From Geothrix sp. (GTDB lineage: Bacteria > Acidobacteriota > Holophagae > Holophagales > Holophagaceae), in the NCBI GenBank assembly GCA_030681515.1, contig JAUXSE010000025.1, positions 1 to 64,000 on the forward strand: 64,000 nt of DNA, read 5' to 3'. The position numbers and the translations under genes are program-made. A model generated the notes under the pieces. The model searched no databases. It was not told the DNA's origin and saw only the letters and a program-made list of their open reading frames with translations. Shown here piece after piece: positions 8,461 to 59,745 of the stretch. Each line of letters begins with the position of its first letter. Within the stretch, counting starts at the first letter, position 1.

Positions 8461-9111
8461 TCAGCCCTTTCGCCTGGCCTTGATGAACTCGAACACGGCG
8501 GGCAGGACGGAGAGCACGATGATGGCCACGATCACCACCTCGAAATGCCGCTGGACCCAGGGGATGCCCCCGAACAGCCGTCCGGCGCCCATCATTGACC
8601 CCACCCACAGGAAGGCCCCGGTGACATTGAACAGGGCGAAGCGGGGGTAGTCCATCCTGCCGATGCCCGCCACGAAGGGGGCGAAGGTGCGGACGATGGG
8701 CACGAAGCGGGCCAGGATGATGGTCTTCCCCCCGTACTTTTCGTAGAAGGCGTGGGCCGCTTCCAGGTGCTTCCGGTTCAGCCAGCGGCTGTCTTCCCGG
8801 TGGAAGACGGCGGGGCCCAGGCGCCGGCCGATGGCGTAGTTCAGCCCATCCCCCAGGATGGCGGCCAGGATGAGCAGTCCGGCCATGAGCCACAGGTTCA
8901 GGGGGGTCCCGGGGATGGCGCCCAGGGCCCCGAGGGCGAAGAGCAGGCTGTCCCCGGGCAGGAAGGGCAGGATCACCAGGCCTGTTTCACAGAAGATGAT
9001 GGCGAACATCAGGACATAGACCCACGGGCCCATCTGCCCCGTGAGGACGGCCAGGGCCTGCGGATCCGTCAGCCGCTGGAGGAAGTGCATGATCGTGCGC
9101 AGCATGTCCAT
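8461..9111 (-). CDS. DedA/VTT family membrane protein
   Basis: An inner-membrane DedA (SNARE-associated/VTT) protein of 216 residues. The family includes undecaprenyl-phosphate and phospholipid flippases linked to membrane homeostasis. It shows the hallmark re-entrant segments: FCETGLVILPFLPGDSLLF with the conserved E and PGDS, and later ILARFVPIVRTFAPFVAG with its conserved arginines. A longer frame begins at a TTG at 9129, but the GGGAGGT sequence there is better read as the ribosome site for the ATG at 9111. It lies 15 bp from smpB on the same strand. The transported lipid is not predictable. Confidence 0.9.
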   Translation of the reverse strand: MDMLRTIMHFLQRLTDPQALAVLTGQMGPWVYVLMFAIIFCETGLVILPFLPGDSLLFALGALGAIPGTPLNLWLMAGLLILAAILGDGLNYAIGRRLGPAVFHREDSRWLNRKHLEAAHAFYEKYGGKTIILARFVPIVRTFAPFVAGIGRMDYPRFALFNVTGAFLWVGSMMGAGRLFGGIPWVQRHFEVVIVAIIVLSVLPAVFEFIKARRKG

Positions 9112-9166
9112 CGAGCCGGGACCTCCCAAGATTCATTCAGCAGTGTCCCAGGCCCAAGAAAGCGAA

Positions 9167-9610
9167 GACAGGATTAACAGGATTAGGAAGGATTAACAGG
9201 ATTCGATTATCGGCGAGGCTCCGCCATCACTTTTCAAGATCAAAAGCTGAAACCACAGATGACACAGATTGCACAGATGGGCGCCGACCCAACGTGCATG
9301 GGCCCGCCGAAGGCGGCCTCCGGCTCTGCCGGAGGTCAGTGTGGGCGCCGGTGCCGCGCCCCCAAAAAGCGCGACCCCGGCGCCCACACTAGAGCCCATG
9401 CCTGCGAAGCACCCACCAGAACAGTCCAGTGATTCGTGCATTGAATCTGTGTGAATCGGTGGAATCTGTGGATCCACGGCCCTTTCTGCGACATCTGCGG
9501 TTGAACGCTTTCAAGGCTGAGCGTGGCCGATAATCGGGTAACAGGATTCAAAAGCAGAGCAGCCATGACCTAATCCTGTGAATCCAGCTTTTCATCCTGT
9601 TAATCCTGTC
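9167..9610. repeat. Nested fold-back element, about 440 bp
   Basis: This fills the 500-bp gap between DedA and pip; I see no gene in it. It is built as nested inverted repeats. Bases 9167-9183 pair exactly with 9594-9610 (17 bp). 9204-9214 pair with 9526-9536 (11 bp). 9253-9278 pair imperfectly with 9444-9471. 9296-9303 pair with 9394-9401. 9338-9351 pair exactly with 9377-9390 (14 bp). The outer arms repeat GGATTAACA and the middle arms repeat ACACAGATT-like words, both at about 9-base spacing. The right end overlaps the stop codon of the neighbouring gene. The pairs are seen directly; calling it one element is inference. Confidence 0.7.
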
Positions 9611-9618
9611 CTGGTTTT

Positions 9619-10581
9619 TCAGCCTGCGAACCGGTCCGTGGCCGCCACCAGGGCTCGCGAGATGCCGGGTTCGTAGGCGCTGTGGCCGGCGTCGGGCACG
9701 AGGATGAGGTCGGCTTCTGGCCAGGCCTTGGACAATGCCCAGGCGCTTTCCAGGGGGCAGACCATGTCGTAGCGGCCCTGGACGATGGCGCCAGGGATGC
9801 CCTTCAACCTGGGCGCGTCGCGCAGCAGCTGGGCCTCGTCCATCCAGCCCTTGTTGAGGAAGTAGTGGCACTCGATGCGGGCGAAGGCCAGGGTGGTGGC
9901 CTCGTCGCCATAGGACGCGATGAAATCGGGATCGGGGATGAGCTTGCTGGTGGCGCCCTCCCAGATGCTCCAGGCCTGGGCGGCGGGCAGGTTCACGGCC
10001 GGGTCATCGCTCAGCAGGCGCTGGGCGTAGGCGTGCAGGAAGTCGCCCCGCTCGGCCTCGGGAATGGCGTCGCGGTAGGGTTCCCAGGCATCGGGGAAGA
10101 TGCGGCTGGCGCCTTCTTGATACAACCAGTCCACCTCGCGCTGGCGCAGGAGGAAGATGCCGCGAAGGATCAGGTCCGTCACGCGCTCCGGGTGCTTTTC
10201 CGCGTAGGCCAGTCCGAGGGTCGCGCCCCAGGAGCCGCCGAAGACCATCCAGCGCTCGAGGCCCAGGTGCTCGCGGATGCGCTCGATGTCGGCCACCAGA
10301 TCCCAGGTGCTGTTCTCGCGCACGTCGGCGTAGGGCGTGCTCCGGCCGCAGCCACGCTGGTCGAAGAGGATGATGCGGTACTTGTCGGGATCGAAGTAGC
10401 GCCGGTGCTTGGGGCTGGTGCCCCCGCCGGGGCCGCCGTGCAGGAAGATGACGGGCTTGCCGCTGGGGTTGCCGCTCTCCTCCACATGCAGCTCGTGCAG
10501 GTCCGAGACCTGGAGCCGCTGAACCCTGTACGGTTCGATGGCCGGGTAGAGCCAGCTGACGGGATCCTTGCGAAGGGACAT
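9619..10581 (-). CDS. pip: Proline iminopeptidase
   Basis: A cytoplasmic alpha/beta-hydrolase (peptidase family S33) that removes N-terminal proline from peptides. The 320 residues include the oxyanion-hole HGGPGGG (about 48-54), the nucleophile elbow GGSWG with S117, the later aspartate in GRYDMVCP, and the histidine in DAGHSAYEPG near the C-terminus. FDQRGCGRS is also typical. The ATG at 10581 has AGGAG 5-6 bases upstream; the longer frame beyond it lacks family sequence. It starts 8 bp after the HemW-like gene, so the two are likely co-transcribed although their functions are not linked. The fold-back element ends at its stop codon. Confidence 0.94.
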   Translation of the reverse strand: MSLRKDPVSWLYPAIEPYRVQRLQVSDLHELHVEESGNPSGKPVIFLHGGPGGGTSPKHRRYFDPDKYRIILFDQRGCGRSTPYADVRENSTWDLVADIERIREHLGLERWMVFGGSWGATLGLAYAEKHPERVTDLILRGIFLLRQREVDWLYQEGASRIFPDAWEPYRDAIPEAERGDFLHAYAQRLLSDDPAVNLPAAQAWSIWEGATSKLIPDPDFIASYGDEATTLAFARIECHYFLNKGWMDEAQLLRDAPRLKGIPGAIVQGRYDMVCPLESAWALSKAWPEADLILVPDAGHSAYEPGISRALVAATDRFAG

Positions 10582-10589
10582 GGGGGCTC

Positions 10590-11708
10590 CTAGACGAACA
10601 TCTGCAGAATGCCGTTGCTCATGAGCATGCCCCGGGCGCTGAGGCGCGCGCGATCGCCCTCCCAGAGCACGAGTCCTTCCTTGGCCAGGGCACGCAGCCG
10701 CGATTCCCATCCGTCGCAGAGGGGCCGCAGGTTCAGGCCCGCGGCCTGGTTCCGCAGGGCGCCCCAGTCCACGCCGCGGTGGAGGCGCAGGCCCAGCAGG
10801 GGAATTTCCGCGAGGGCCTCGGCGGCATCCAGCTCCTGGAACTCGACCTCGCCGCGGCCCTCGGCCCAGGCAGAGATGATCCCGCTCTCCGTCCAGCGGA
10901 AATCGCCCAGCTGCGACGCGGCGCTGGGGCCCAGGCCCAGATAGGGCCGGCGCTCCCAGTAGCGCGTGTTGTGGATGGATTCCCCGCCGGGCCGCCCGTA
11001 GTTGCTGATCTCGTACGGCGGAAGGCCCAGGCGGGGCAGCTCCTCCTGGAGCGCCTCGAAGACATCCGCCACCTCGTCCTCGGAGGGAAGGGCCAGGCGG
11101 CCCGCGTCAATCTCGGCGCGCAGGGGGCAGGCCTTGTCCAGGTCCAGCAGGTAGATGCTGAGGTGCTCGATGCCGGTGGCCACCAGGGCGCGGGCATCCT
11201 CGACCACCTTGGACAACGATTGTCCAGGGATGCCCACCATGAGATCGGCGCTGCGGCGGCGGAACCCGGCGCGCTCGGCCAGTTCGAGGGATTCCAGGGC
11301 CTGGGCGGATCCGTGGATGCGGCCCAGGCGGGCCAGAAGGGTGTCATCCAGCGCCTGTACGCCCAGGCTGATGCGGTCCCAGCCGAGATCGCGGGCATGG
11401 CGCAGCCAGGCCAGGTCCACGGTGCCGGGGTTGGCCTCCAGGGTGGCCTCCACCAGGGGCGACAGATCGAAGGCCTCGCGCACGGCGCCCGTGAGGCCCT
11501 CCAGTTCCGCGGGGGACAGCAGCGAGGGCGTTCCGCCACCCAGGTAGAGCGTATCCACGGCCGGGCGGCCCAGGGCCGCGCCCCAGAGGGTGGTCTCCGA
11601 AATCAGCCGGCGGATCGTGTGGGGCTGGAGGCTCCGGTCGCGGGTGGTGGCGAAGGAGCAGTAGGTGCAGCGGTCGAGACAGAAGGGGATGTGGAAGTAG
11701 AGGCCCAT
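10590..11708 (-). CDS. hemW: HemW-like radical SAM protein
   Basis: A radical S-adenosylmethionine protein related to oxygen-independent coproporphyrinogen oxidase. HemW members act as haem-trafficking or haem-insertion factors rather than as the oxidase. The cluster motif C10-x3-C14-x2-C17 (CLDRCTYC) directly follows YFHIPF, and the SAM-binding GGGTPSLL occurs about 50 residues later. The 372-residue length suits HemW better than HemN (about 455). The GNYGRPG-like segment (ISNYGRPG) and the C-terminal winged-helix remnant also match. The ATG at 11708 was chosen because the protein then begins at the conserved strand; an upstream TTG overlaps the neighbouring gene. Confidence 0.88.
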   Translation of the reverse strand: MGLYFHIPFCLDRCTYCSFATTRDRSLQPHTIRRLISETTLWGAALGRPAVDTLYLGGGTPSLLSPAELEGLTGAVREAFDLSPLVEATLEANPGTVDLAWLRHARDLGWDRISLGVQALDDTLLARLGRIHGSAQALESLELAERAGFRRRSADLMVGIPGQSLSKVVEDARALVATGIEHLSIYLLDLDKACPLRAEIDAGRLALPSEDEVADVFEALQEELPRLGLPPYEISNYGRPGGESIHNTRYWERRPYLGLGPSAASQLGDFRWTESGIISAWAEGRGEVEFQELDAAEALAEIPLLGLRLHRGVDWGALRNQAAGLNLRPLCDGWESRLRALAKEGLVLWEGDRARLSARGMLMSNGILQMFV

Positions 11709-21785: not shown

Positions 21786-21828
21786 GGGGCTTCGCATCTG
21801 ACGGAGGTCAGAGAGAAAAACGCTAGTC

Positions 21829-22149
21829 GCGGAAGACATGGAAGAAAGCCGGAAGGCACGGAAACGAGCGGGGGCGTCCGCTCCGAAAGCACGGGCTGGA
21901 TCCCGGGGGCGCCTGGTCCGCGCTTTGGGAACGCGGCAAGGGCGCCCCCGGGATCACTTCCGGCTACGCCGGAAGCCGCCTTCGGCGGGCCCGTGCGGCG
22001 AGGACCACAACCCCTTCCGTGTCTTCTGTGTGATTCCGTGTCTTCCGTGACCAGCCATGCCTTTGATATTTGGCAGGCCCTGCTGTTGGAACCTCTCCAC
22101 GGCAGTTCTATGTGTCCTCTGCGGTTCTCTGTGTCCTCTGTGTTCCAAC
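21829..22149. repeat. Nested fold-back element between ketosynthase genes
   Basis: This occupies most of the 424-bp gap at 21786-22209, in which I see no gene. Bases 21829-21863 pair with 22015-22049 along about 35 bp with mismatches, using words such as GGAAGACA and TTCCGTGTC. An exact 15-bp pair, 21899-21913 with 21941-21955, forms the core. A second part, 22085-22092 with 22142-22149 (exact 8 bp), encloses TCCTCTGTG-like words at 9-base spacing. It has the same architecture as the element at 9167-9610 but different words. It interrupts an otherwise tightly overlapping operon. Confidence 0.65.
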
Positions 22150-53795: not shown

Positions 53796-53904
53796 GATGG
53801 GATGAGTCTACAGGTGGATGGAAGCGGGGGCCAAGGTGGAATCTTGGCGCATGGGTCAGAGTTCTGGGATGCTGATACCAGTCTGCGTTCAATAGAAAAG
53901 AACA

Positions 53905-53928
53905 CCGCCAAGTCGCCAAGACGCCAAG
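53905..53928. repeat. Short 9-base-word repeat
   Basis: Three tandem words of the type CGCCAAG(A/T)C at 8-9 base spacing, 34 bp before the start of the DUF4190-like gene. It is one-sided here, with no partner arm found. The same kind of periodic words form the arms of the larger fold-back elements in this window. Confidence 0.45.
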
Positions 53929-53961
53929 CACTGCAAAAGCCGTTGTCTGTCGGAGATGTCC

Positions 53962-54695: not shown

Positions 54696-54946
54696 CTCCA
54701 CGAAGGACACCAAGACGCCCTGCGGGCGCGCGAATGGTGAATGGCCAGCCGCGCAAGCGTTGCTGGGGGCCATAGGCCCAGGCGGCCCACCCCCGCTGCA
54801 TTCGCGTCCATTCGCGTCATTCGTGGTTTCGGTTTTGATCATGTAAAAGGTTGGTTGAGGCAGGCCGACAATCGGGAAAAGGCAATCGGGTAGTGATGGT
54901 GTGCCCTTCTTAGTGCCCTTGGTTATTCTTCGTGTCCTTCGTGGAG
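54696..54946. repeat. Nested fold-back element near 54.8 kb
   Basis: Fills the 277-bp gap between the DUF4190-like gene and the gamma carbonic anhydrase-like gene. 54696-54714 pairs with 54928-54946 at 18 of 19 bases (CCACGAAGGACAC/GTGTCCTTCGTGG words). Inside, 54726-54744 pairs imperfectly with 54800-54826 (CGCGAATGG/CCATTCGCG words repeating every 9 bases). A direct repeat CAATCGGG follows. Same architecture as 9167-9610. No gene seen. Confidence 0.65.
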
Positions 54947-54964
54947 GCTTTGGAGGCCCTTGTA

Positions 54965-55546
54965 TCAGGGGTAAGGATGCCCCTCGGAGAAGCCCGGTCG
55001 AGGGGCAGCGATTTTTGGGGCTTCGGCCAGGGGCCATCCATCGGTGAAGTAGGCCTCCTTGTAGCGCACGTAGCGGGTCCAGACGCTGGCCACCAGTTGG
55101 CGCTGCTTCTCGCTGAGGGACCCCTTCACGGTCGCGGGCCAGCCAGCTATCAGGCTGTGGGGCGGGGCCTTGAAGCCCTCGCGCACCAGGCTCCCCGCGG
55201 CCACGAGACAGCCTTCCCCGATCTCCGCGCCGTCCATGATCGTGGTGCTCATGCCGACGAGGGCGCCCTTCCGGATGGTGCAGCCGTGCAGCATCACGTT
55301 ATGGGCGATGCTCACTTCAGCCTCGATCAGCAGCGGCCACGTCTCGTTGGTGACGTGGAGGCAGCAGGCGTCCTGGATATTGGCGCGGGCGCCGATGCGG
55401 ATCCAGTTCACATCGCCGCGGAGGACGCAGTTGAACCAGATGCTGGCGTCGTCGCCGATGGTCACGTCGCCCAGGATCAGCGCGCTGTCGGGAACGAAGA
55501 CGCGGGCACCGATGCGGGGAACCATGCCTTGGAAGGGGCGGATCAT
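54965..55546 (-). CDS. Gamma carbonic anhydrase-like protein
   Basis: A left-handed beta-helix protein of 193 residues, with hexapeptide turns from about 20 to 140 (GDVTIGDDASIWFNCVLRGDVNWIRIGARANIQD). The metal histidines fit HVTNE, HNVMLHGC and neighbours, as in YrdA/PaaY-type gamma carbonic anhydrase-like proteins. Activity as anhydrase is not assured. The C-terminus has an extra 45-residue tail. The ATG at 55546 follows GAGGTG; divergent from the aminotransferase. Confidence 0.9.
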   Translation of the reverse strand: MIRPFQGMVPRIGARVFVPDSALILGDVTIGDDASIWFNCVLRGDVNWIRIGARANIQDACCLHVTNETWPLLIEAEVSIAHNVMLHGCTIRKGALVGMSTTIMDGAEIGEGCLVAAGSLVREGFKAPPHSLIAGWPATVKGSLSEKQRQLVASVWTRYVRYKEAYFTDGWPLAEAPKIAAPRPGFSEGHPYP

Positions 55547-58680: not shown

Positions 58681-58760
58681 TGCTCCAAAAACGCTGCGCG
58701 TTTTTGGAGATAGGAAAAGATCTTTTTCTATCTCCGAATCGCCGAAGGCGATTTGGAGCA
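58681..58760. repeat. 80-bp three-hairpin repeat, copy 1
   Basis: Outer TGCTCCA/TGGAGCA enclose three stems: AAAAACG-CT-GCGCGTTTTT type, GGAGATAG...CTATCTCC, and AATCGCC-GAA-GGCGATT. A cloverleaf-like shape. It starts 4 bp after the Crp-like stop. Copy 2 at 59666-59745 is the same length, same orientation and mostly identical. Confidence 0.8.
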
Positions 58761-59665: not shown

Positions 59666-59745
59666 TGCTCCAAAAACGCTGCGCGTTTTTGGAGATGGGA
59701 AAAGACCTCTTTCTATCTCCAAATCGCTTTTGGCGATTTGGAGCC
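59666..59745. repeat. 80-bp three-hairpin repeat, copy 2
   Basis: The second copy, 8 bp after the cytochrome stop and 3 bp before the convergent moeA stop. It keeps all stems with paired changes, for example AAATCGC-TTTT-GGCGATTT in place of the third stem and GATGGG...CTATCTCC in the second, which supports selection or inheritance as folded RNA or DNA. Confidence 0.8.

Follow-up and report, generated by a model that had tools for sequence, protein, structure and literature searches.

What is the 440-bp nested palindrome found in this Geothrix genome between the pip gene and a DedA-like one? A first-pass annotation of the 64,000-nucleotide stretch analysed here (the window) had offered three answers: a structured RNA, a family of non-autonomous elements inserting into one another, or a product of template switching. 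We found that the palindrome itself is real and beyond chance. The exact 17-bp outer pair (GACAGGATTAACAGGAT at 9167-9183 with ATCCTGTTAATCCTGTC at 9594-9610) was recovered, and a repeat search extended these arms to 9159-9183/9594-9618 and returned further inverted pairs at 9204-9225/9515-9536, 9171-9187/9569-9585, 9189-9202/9594-9607 and 9338-9359/9369-9390. Word arms at 9252-9279/9442-9472 form another nested pair. Arrays of about 9-nt spacing were found in ACAGGATTA (9168-9203), CACAGATGA (9254-9279) and GAATCTGTG (9443-9472), and with as many as 3 mismatches allowed the window has 6 occurrences of AGGATTAACAGGATT where 0.27 would be expected. The proposed folding check gave z = -11.4 for the DNA and z = -11.3 for the minus-strand RNA, with 0 of 100 shuffles equally good in either case. 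As described previously, the right end adjoins the stop codon of pip (9619-10710, minus strand). The closest relatives of this pip come from Geothrix species, in line with a Geothrix genome.

All five nested pairs of the earlier description are present, but they do not form one structure: they are divided between two elements, one inside the other (Table 1). The inner element is flanked by an 8-bp target duplication, TAACAGGA. In G. fermentans (L142) a 298-bp relative with the same 8-bp repeats sits in a hairpin at a different locus, and in another genome (G039) eight sampled copies of the inner family (L317-L320 and L322-L325) occupy exactly this position of the GGATTAACA hairpin, with at least four more copies found outside it. 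Given the target duplication, the G. fermentans relative and the eight copies at the same position, the inner element is a separate terminal-inverted-repeat element with a preference for the GGATTAACA hairpin. Its word arms and GC-rich core vary from copy to copy within the family.

Table 1. Coordinates of the word-armed features in the window.
Feature	Position	Strand	Supporting observation
Left arm of the outer element: two pairs of GGATTAACA words with the spacer AGGAA	9159..9203	+	33/40 and 40/47 positions match when aligned with the arm pair of the coding element at G000:C60
Target duplication, left copy TAACAGGA	9194..9201	+	Not duplicated at this point in insert-free hairpins
Inner element of 337 bp with terminal inverted repeats at 9202-9225 and 9515-9538 (consensus of the family: CCTGATTATCGGCGAGCCTCAGCC)	9202..9538	+	
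Left word arm within inner element (CACAGAT words)	9252..9279	+	
GC-rich hairpins, inner element core	9306..9390	+	Repeats and folding; like cores in other Geothrix copies
Right word arm within inner element (GAATCTGTG words)	9442..9472	+	
Target duplication, right copy TAACAGGA	9539..9546	+	
Right arm of the outer element (words 9569-9585, 9594-9610) with the rest of the loop; its end lies at the stop codon of pip	9547..9618	+	36/40 and 43/50 positions of the arm match the coding element; 6 species have an orthologous hairpin, L135 is cleanly empty
Second GGATTAACA hairpin of the window, between two stop codons	1128..1210	+	Orthologous site filled in L132, L139, L142, L145; empty in L136
Palindrome of the same class built on a different word, CACGGAAG; ends GCTAGTCGCGGAAG / CTTCCGTGACCAGC	21826..22055	+	
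Palindrome of the same class built on different words, CACGAAGG outside and CGAATG inside	54697..54970	+	

Several smaller features of the window were seen beside the palindromes in Table 1. The 21826-22055 palindrome is followed by what appears to be a solo arm of TGTGTCCTC words (22110-22147), and a solo arm of CGCCAAGA words, with no partner found nearby, lies between genes at 53902-53930. At about 54867, within the 54697-54970 palindrome, GGCCGACAATCGGG resembles the terminal repeat of the inner element. A 36-bp inverted repeat (TTTGGAGATAGGAAAAGATC...) at 58703-58738 and 59688-59723 spans 1021 bp and is also internally palindromic.

With the insertion set aside, the outer element is a hairpin of about 110 bp made of GGATTAACA words, and the further copies in related genomes that had been named as a check were found: a simple hairpin of this kind stands at the 3' end of pip in six Geothrix species (L132, L136, L139, L140, L142 and L145). 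The site is empty in G. oryzisoli (L135), where the pip stop adjoins the next gene; L133 also has no hairpin there, but the pip end itself differs, and L134 has a palindrome made of another word. The two arms have dissimilar spacers, which gives the hairpin an orientation: it runs one way in the window, L132, L136 and L145, and the opposite way in L139 and L142. The 25-base ending noted again at 1184-1208 belongs to the second hairpin of the same family. In the window's genome CAGGATTAACAGGATT has 28 matches at up to 1 mismatch, and its reversed control has 0. Insert-free orthologous hairpins, the 8-bp target duplication and recurrent insertion at the same hairpin site support the suggestion that non-autonomous elements have inserted into one another.

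Could the hairpin instead be kept as a functional RNA or bidirectional terminator, its structure ending or protecting transcripts between adjacent genes? Both strands fold very stably, several copies lie directly after stop codons, hairpins are kept at orthologous sites of several species, and at the cdsA/dxr junction described below the right arm of an element places GGAG ahead of the ATG of dxr. Against this, the palindrome has no match in Rfam, and the terminator pattern (GC-rich stem plus T run) gave 0 sites in 9000-9800; many species have no hairpin at the same site, and one junction can carry different, unrelated words in different species. No promoter was found in the palindrome. Aligned copies were also compared for paired changes between arms, which had been named as a check, and none were seen: the two arms of one copy are no more alike than arms taken from different copies, either at cdsA/dxr (p = 0.26) or among orthologous GGATTAACA hairpins (p = 0.95). 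This lack of paired changes among resident copies argues against a conserved RNA structure, and we consider such a role very unlikely. A secondary effect of the hairpins on transcripts is possible. Because the arms of resident copies match no better within than between copies, the comparison points to arms that may matter as ends in movement and not as a structure under selection after insertion.

A longer relative of the outer hairpin was found in the same genome. A facing pair of GGATTAACA arms (C60:14647 and 15156) flanks a GxxExxY gene (G000:C60:14748-15086), whose neighbours read as pilB and pilT. GxxExxY corresponds to PF13366 (Pfam PDDEXK_3), a PD-(D/E)XK nuclease family, and the nuclease motif D..ExK is conserved in our alignment; no solved structure close to it was found. 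Since the arms of the hairpin align with those of the coding element, spacers included (33-45 of 40-50 positions), the outer hairpins look like MITE-like, internally deleted relatives of a GxxExxY-carrying element, as MITEs are of transposons. The same arm architecture is common to coding and non-coding copies.

We examined 60 GxxExxY loci from the Geothrix family and from other phyla. In 43 of them the gene was enclosed by inverted arms of 8-10-nt words; at our threshold the other 17 were without arms. The same measure was positive for 1 of 60 mismatched flank pairs (upstream and downstream flanks taken from different loci), 1 of 1850 random segments and 1 of 46 pip genes. The best repeat lag was 8-10 nt in 40 of the 43 armed loci. 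The words themselves were diverse (CACGGAGGA, CACAGATTA, CGCCAAGAC and GGATTAACA among them), and the two arms of an element matched each other with a score of 55.9, compared with 14.6 between elements. These tests were anchored on genes because steps of 8 and 10 nt occur in the arms, which made a scan of 1.4 Mb for perfect periodic arrays too strict.

A second gene family, S23/23S_rRNA_IVP (PF05635, a four-helix-bundle protein), was enclosed in the same manner by 7-nt words in 42 of 69 loci. The first set gave arms in 22 of 42 loci (mismatched pairs 0/42), and a second set from the Lysobacter order, for which a slightly lower score cut was used, in 20 of 27 (mismatched pairs 3/27). Among the 44 tabulated arms the best lag was 7 in 39 (19/22 in the first set, 20/22 in the Lysobacter order). 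The words were again diverse (AGCTATC, GGGAATC, GTCCTTA), and arm match was 55.1 within and 11.4 between elements. Word length is thus specific to the gene. In the Lysobacter order S23 genes lie between GGGATTC/GGGAATC arms (L404, L409, L410 and L415), and those of cyanobacterial plasmids lie between GGGTGTA, GGGAACA and GGGAAAA arrays, which resemble the known heptamer repeats of that group. S23 matches 2gsc, the crystallised Xanthomonas protein XCC0516, with five chains in the entry, and weakly matches the bAvd family. At one locus (L412) the S23 gene sits between long inverted arrays in which CTGGGGAACG units alternate with short GC hairpins of varying sequence.

These observations bear on whether the arms could have been built in place, by quasi-palindrome correction or by template switching combined with slippage. 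Such processes do yield tandem words and near-identical arms, and they could help to keep the words alike within one element. They give no account of discrete multi-copy elements with common ends at many loci, of empty orthologous sites and an 8-bp target duplication, or of a nuclease gene sitting between arms whose word length is fixed, and we regard a local origin as extremely improbable. Simple template switching, as first proposed, likewise does not account for the empty sites and the target duplication, nor for there being multiple copies or for the association with a nuclease gene. The first-pass annotation is partly supported: of its three options, mutually inserting non-autonomous elements have support and a structured RNA does not. 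The gene association and the wider class were out of its view.

On the GxxExxY tree the word classes cluster, requiring 26 changes compared with 36.1 for shuffled labels (0 of 200 shuffles as low), and one supported clade unites the GGATTAACA-type words of L304, from the same family, with those of L227, whose locus came by way of a Terriglobia genome. We initially counted about 50 GxxExxY copies in G005 and 7 in G023 as candidate recent bursts, and rejected them as such: with their arms, they are passengers in high-copy insertion sequences that look IS5-like or IS630-like (L059-L078 in G005, L079-L085 in G023). Being carried in this way, these copies are uninformative on autonomous movement; riding in insertion sequences is an apparent route of GxxExxY spread. 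The appearance of GxxExxY in a reverse-transcriptase paper was also followed as a lead and dropped, the gene being merely a CRISPR neighbour there.

Filled and empty versions of the same sites were then compared at operon junctions. The rpoB/rpoC junction measures 52 bp in most Geothrix species (e.g. G097). In G039 it is a 518-bp interval with a GxxExxY gene between CCACGGAGG arms, and a queried stretch of 541 bp is 98% identical to the empty G097. The same junction is filled in the distant species G102 and holds an arm-like remnant in G106. An element of the G039 rpoB/rpoC lineage is found in the window's genome between ftsA and ftsZ; the two elements are identical at 411 of 500 positions, and the similarity stops at the arms. 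At cdsA/dxr, 21 of 30 sampled species have a stop/start junction of 5-8 bp, and 8 of 30 have a GxxExxY element at the identical nucleotide, directly after the cdsA stop. In one of the 30 (G084, L363) a 209-bp insert of another kind was seen. Filled copies start dxr with ATG, with the arm-derived GGAG upstream, and empty copies use other codons, mostly GTG. At the level of genome comparison, these alignments show that word-armed elements insert at operon junctions (rpoB/rpoC and cdsA/dxr). No target duplication was evident for word-armed elements in the pip 3', cdsA/dxr or rpoB/rpoC comparisons.

Such recurrence at one nucleotide would be expected of a homing-like element, in which GxxExxY cuts specific empty junctions, repair copies the element in and the same site is hit repeatedly. 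The scattered presence at cdsA/dxr requires 7 changes on the tree of 29 usable species, 6 of them forced by supported branches; the filling of rpoB/rpoC in two distant species and the remnant in a third, the missing target duplication and the D..ExK motif are all consistent with homing. However, the same lineage has used a different locus, ftsA/ftsZ, the GxxExxY genes at cdsA/dxr have diverged more than their flanks, and G032 and G098 pair in both trees, as under vertical descent. The cdsA/dxr pattern may reflect either repeated insertion or vertical descent with repeated precise loss, and we hold homing to be unlikely.

Taken together, the palindrome is probably a nest of two non-coding mobile elements: an outer GGATTAACA hairpin related to the GxxExxY element, and a 337-bp element inserted later. 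In this mechanism the tandem arms of about 9-nt words would serve as the terminal inverted repeats of the outer element, and the different, terminal-inverted-repeat element, which has word arms of its own and a core of GC hairpins, entered the hairpin later with the 8-bp target duplication. GxxExxY is a candidate mover of word-armed elements. The protein would recognise its own word array, perhaps with one word per subunit, might cut DNA at the word array or at the target, and might move coding copies and, in trans, non-coding ones. The fixed word length suggests, speculatively, one word per protein subunit.

We lean slightly towards a still more general class, with ends made of short words in inverted arrays, the word being free and its length set by the protein: 9 nt for GxxExxY and 7 nt for the S23/Avd-like ring protein. 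A ring or filament protein would read one word per subunit, and intergenic heptamers, including those of cyanobacteria and Xanthomonas, would be arms or decayed remnants of S23 elements. The 9-nt-word class with GxxExxY genes is widespread and apparently undescribed, and its 7-nt-word sister class with S23 genes may account for the common heptamer repeats of bacterial genomes. The arms are a likely substrate for two poorly understood protein families, GxxExxY and S23, and this would place nuclease-gene elements inside essential operons (rpoB-rpoC, ftsA-ftsZ, cdsA-dxr). In the one open-access library searched, no paper linking word arms to GxxExxY or S23 genes was found.

Of the known systems, MITEs are close to the outer hairpin in that it is short, non-coding and multi-copy (28 arm matches), has empty orthologous sites and shares its inverted ends with a coding relative that is larger; a target duplication flanks the inner element as well. 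Unlike MITEs, the outer family shows no kinship to a known DDE transposon, its coding relative carrying a PD-(D/E)XK protein (PF13366) and no known transposase, and its ends are 9-nt-word arrays that differ between families, with no target duplication found. REP/REPIN-RAYT systems are similarly dispersed intergenic palindromes with proposed movement in trans by a single-domain protein, but here a nuclease-fold PF13366 protein, not a Y1 transposase, lies between cognate arms, the sequence signature is different and the arms are tandem words. Intervening sequences of 23S rRNA that come with the S23 (IVP) protein PF05635 are also small elements with complementary ends and one small gene, and genes of this family lie between inverted 7-nt words in our data. 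They differ in location, as the elements described here lie in intergenic DNA and the palindrome is not inside a 23S rRNA gene; neither the word structure nor the GxxExxY/9-nt branch was found in their published descriptions.

The words themselves can be compared with published heptamer repeats. As of 2015 the function of the Xanthomonas GGGAATC and Nostoc GGGGA(C/T)T heptamers was unknown, and X. campestris has 70 convergent inverted heptamer pairs (PMC4692102). TAACTGA heptamer repeats have also been published (PMC4679880), and in a 2018 survey of 7006 prokaryotic genomes tandem heptamers ranked first in abundance among intergenic tandem repeats, with 'no clear clue' as to what they do (PMC6344855). 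These papers report no associated gene, whereas the arms of S23 genes, compared in the Lysobacter order and in cyanobacteria, are likewise tandem 7-nt words of the GGGAATC and GGGAACA types. With heptamers tied to S23 genes, and 9-nt words to GxxExxY genes, heptamer function becomes a directly testable question.
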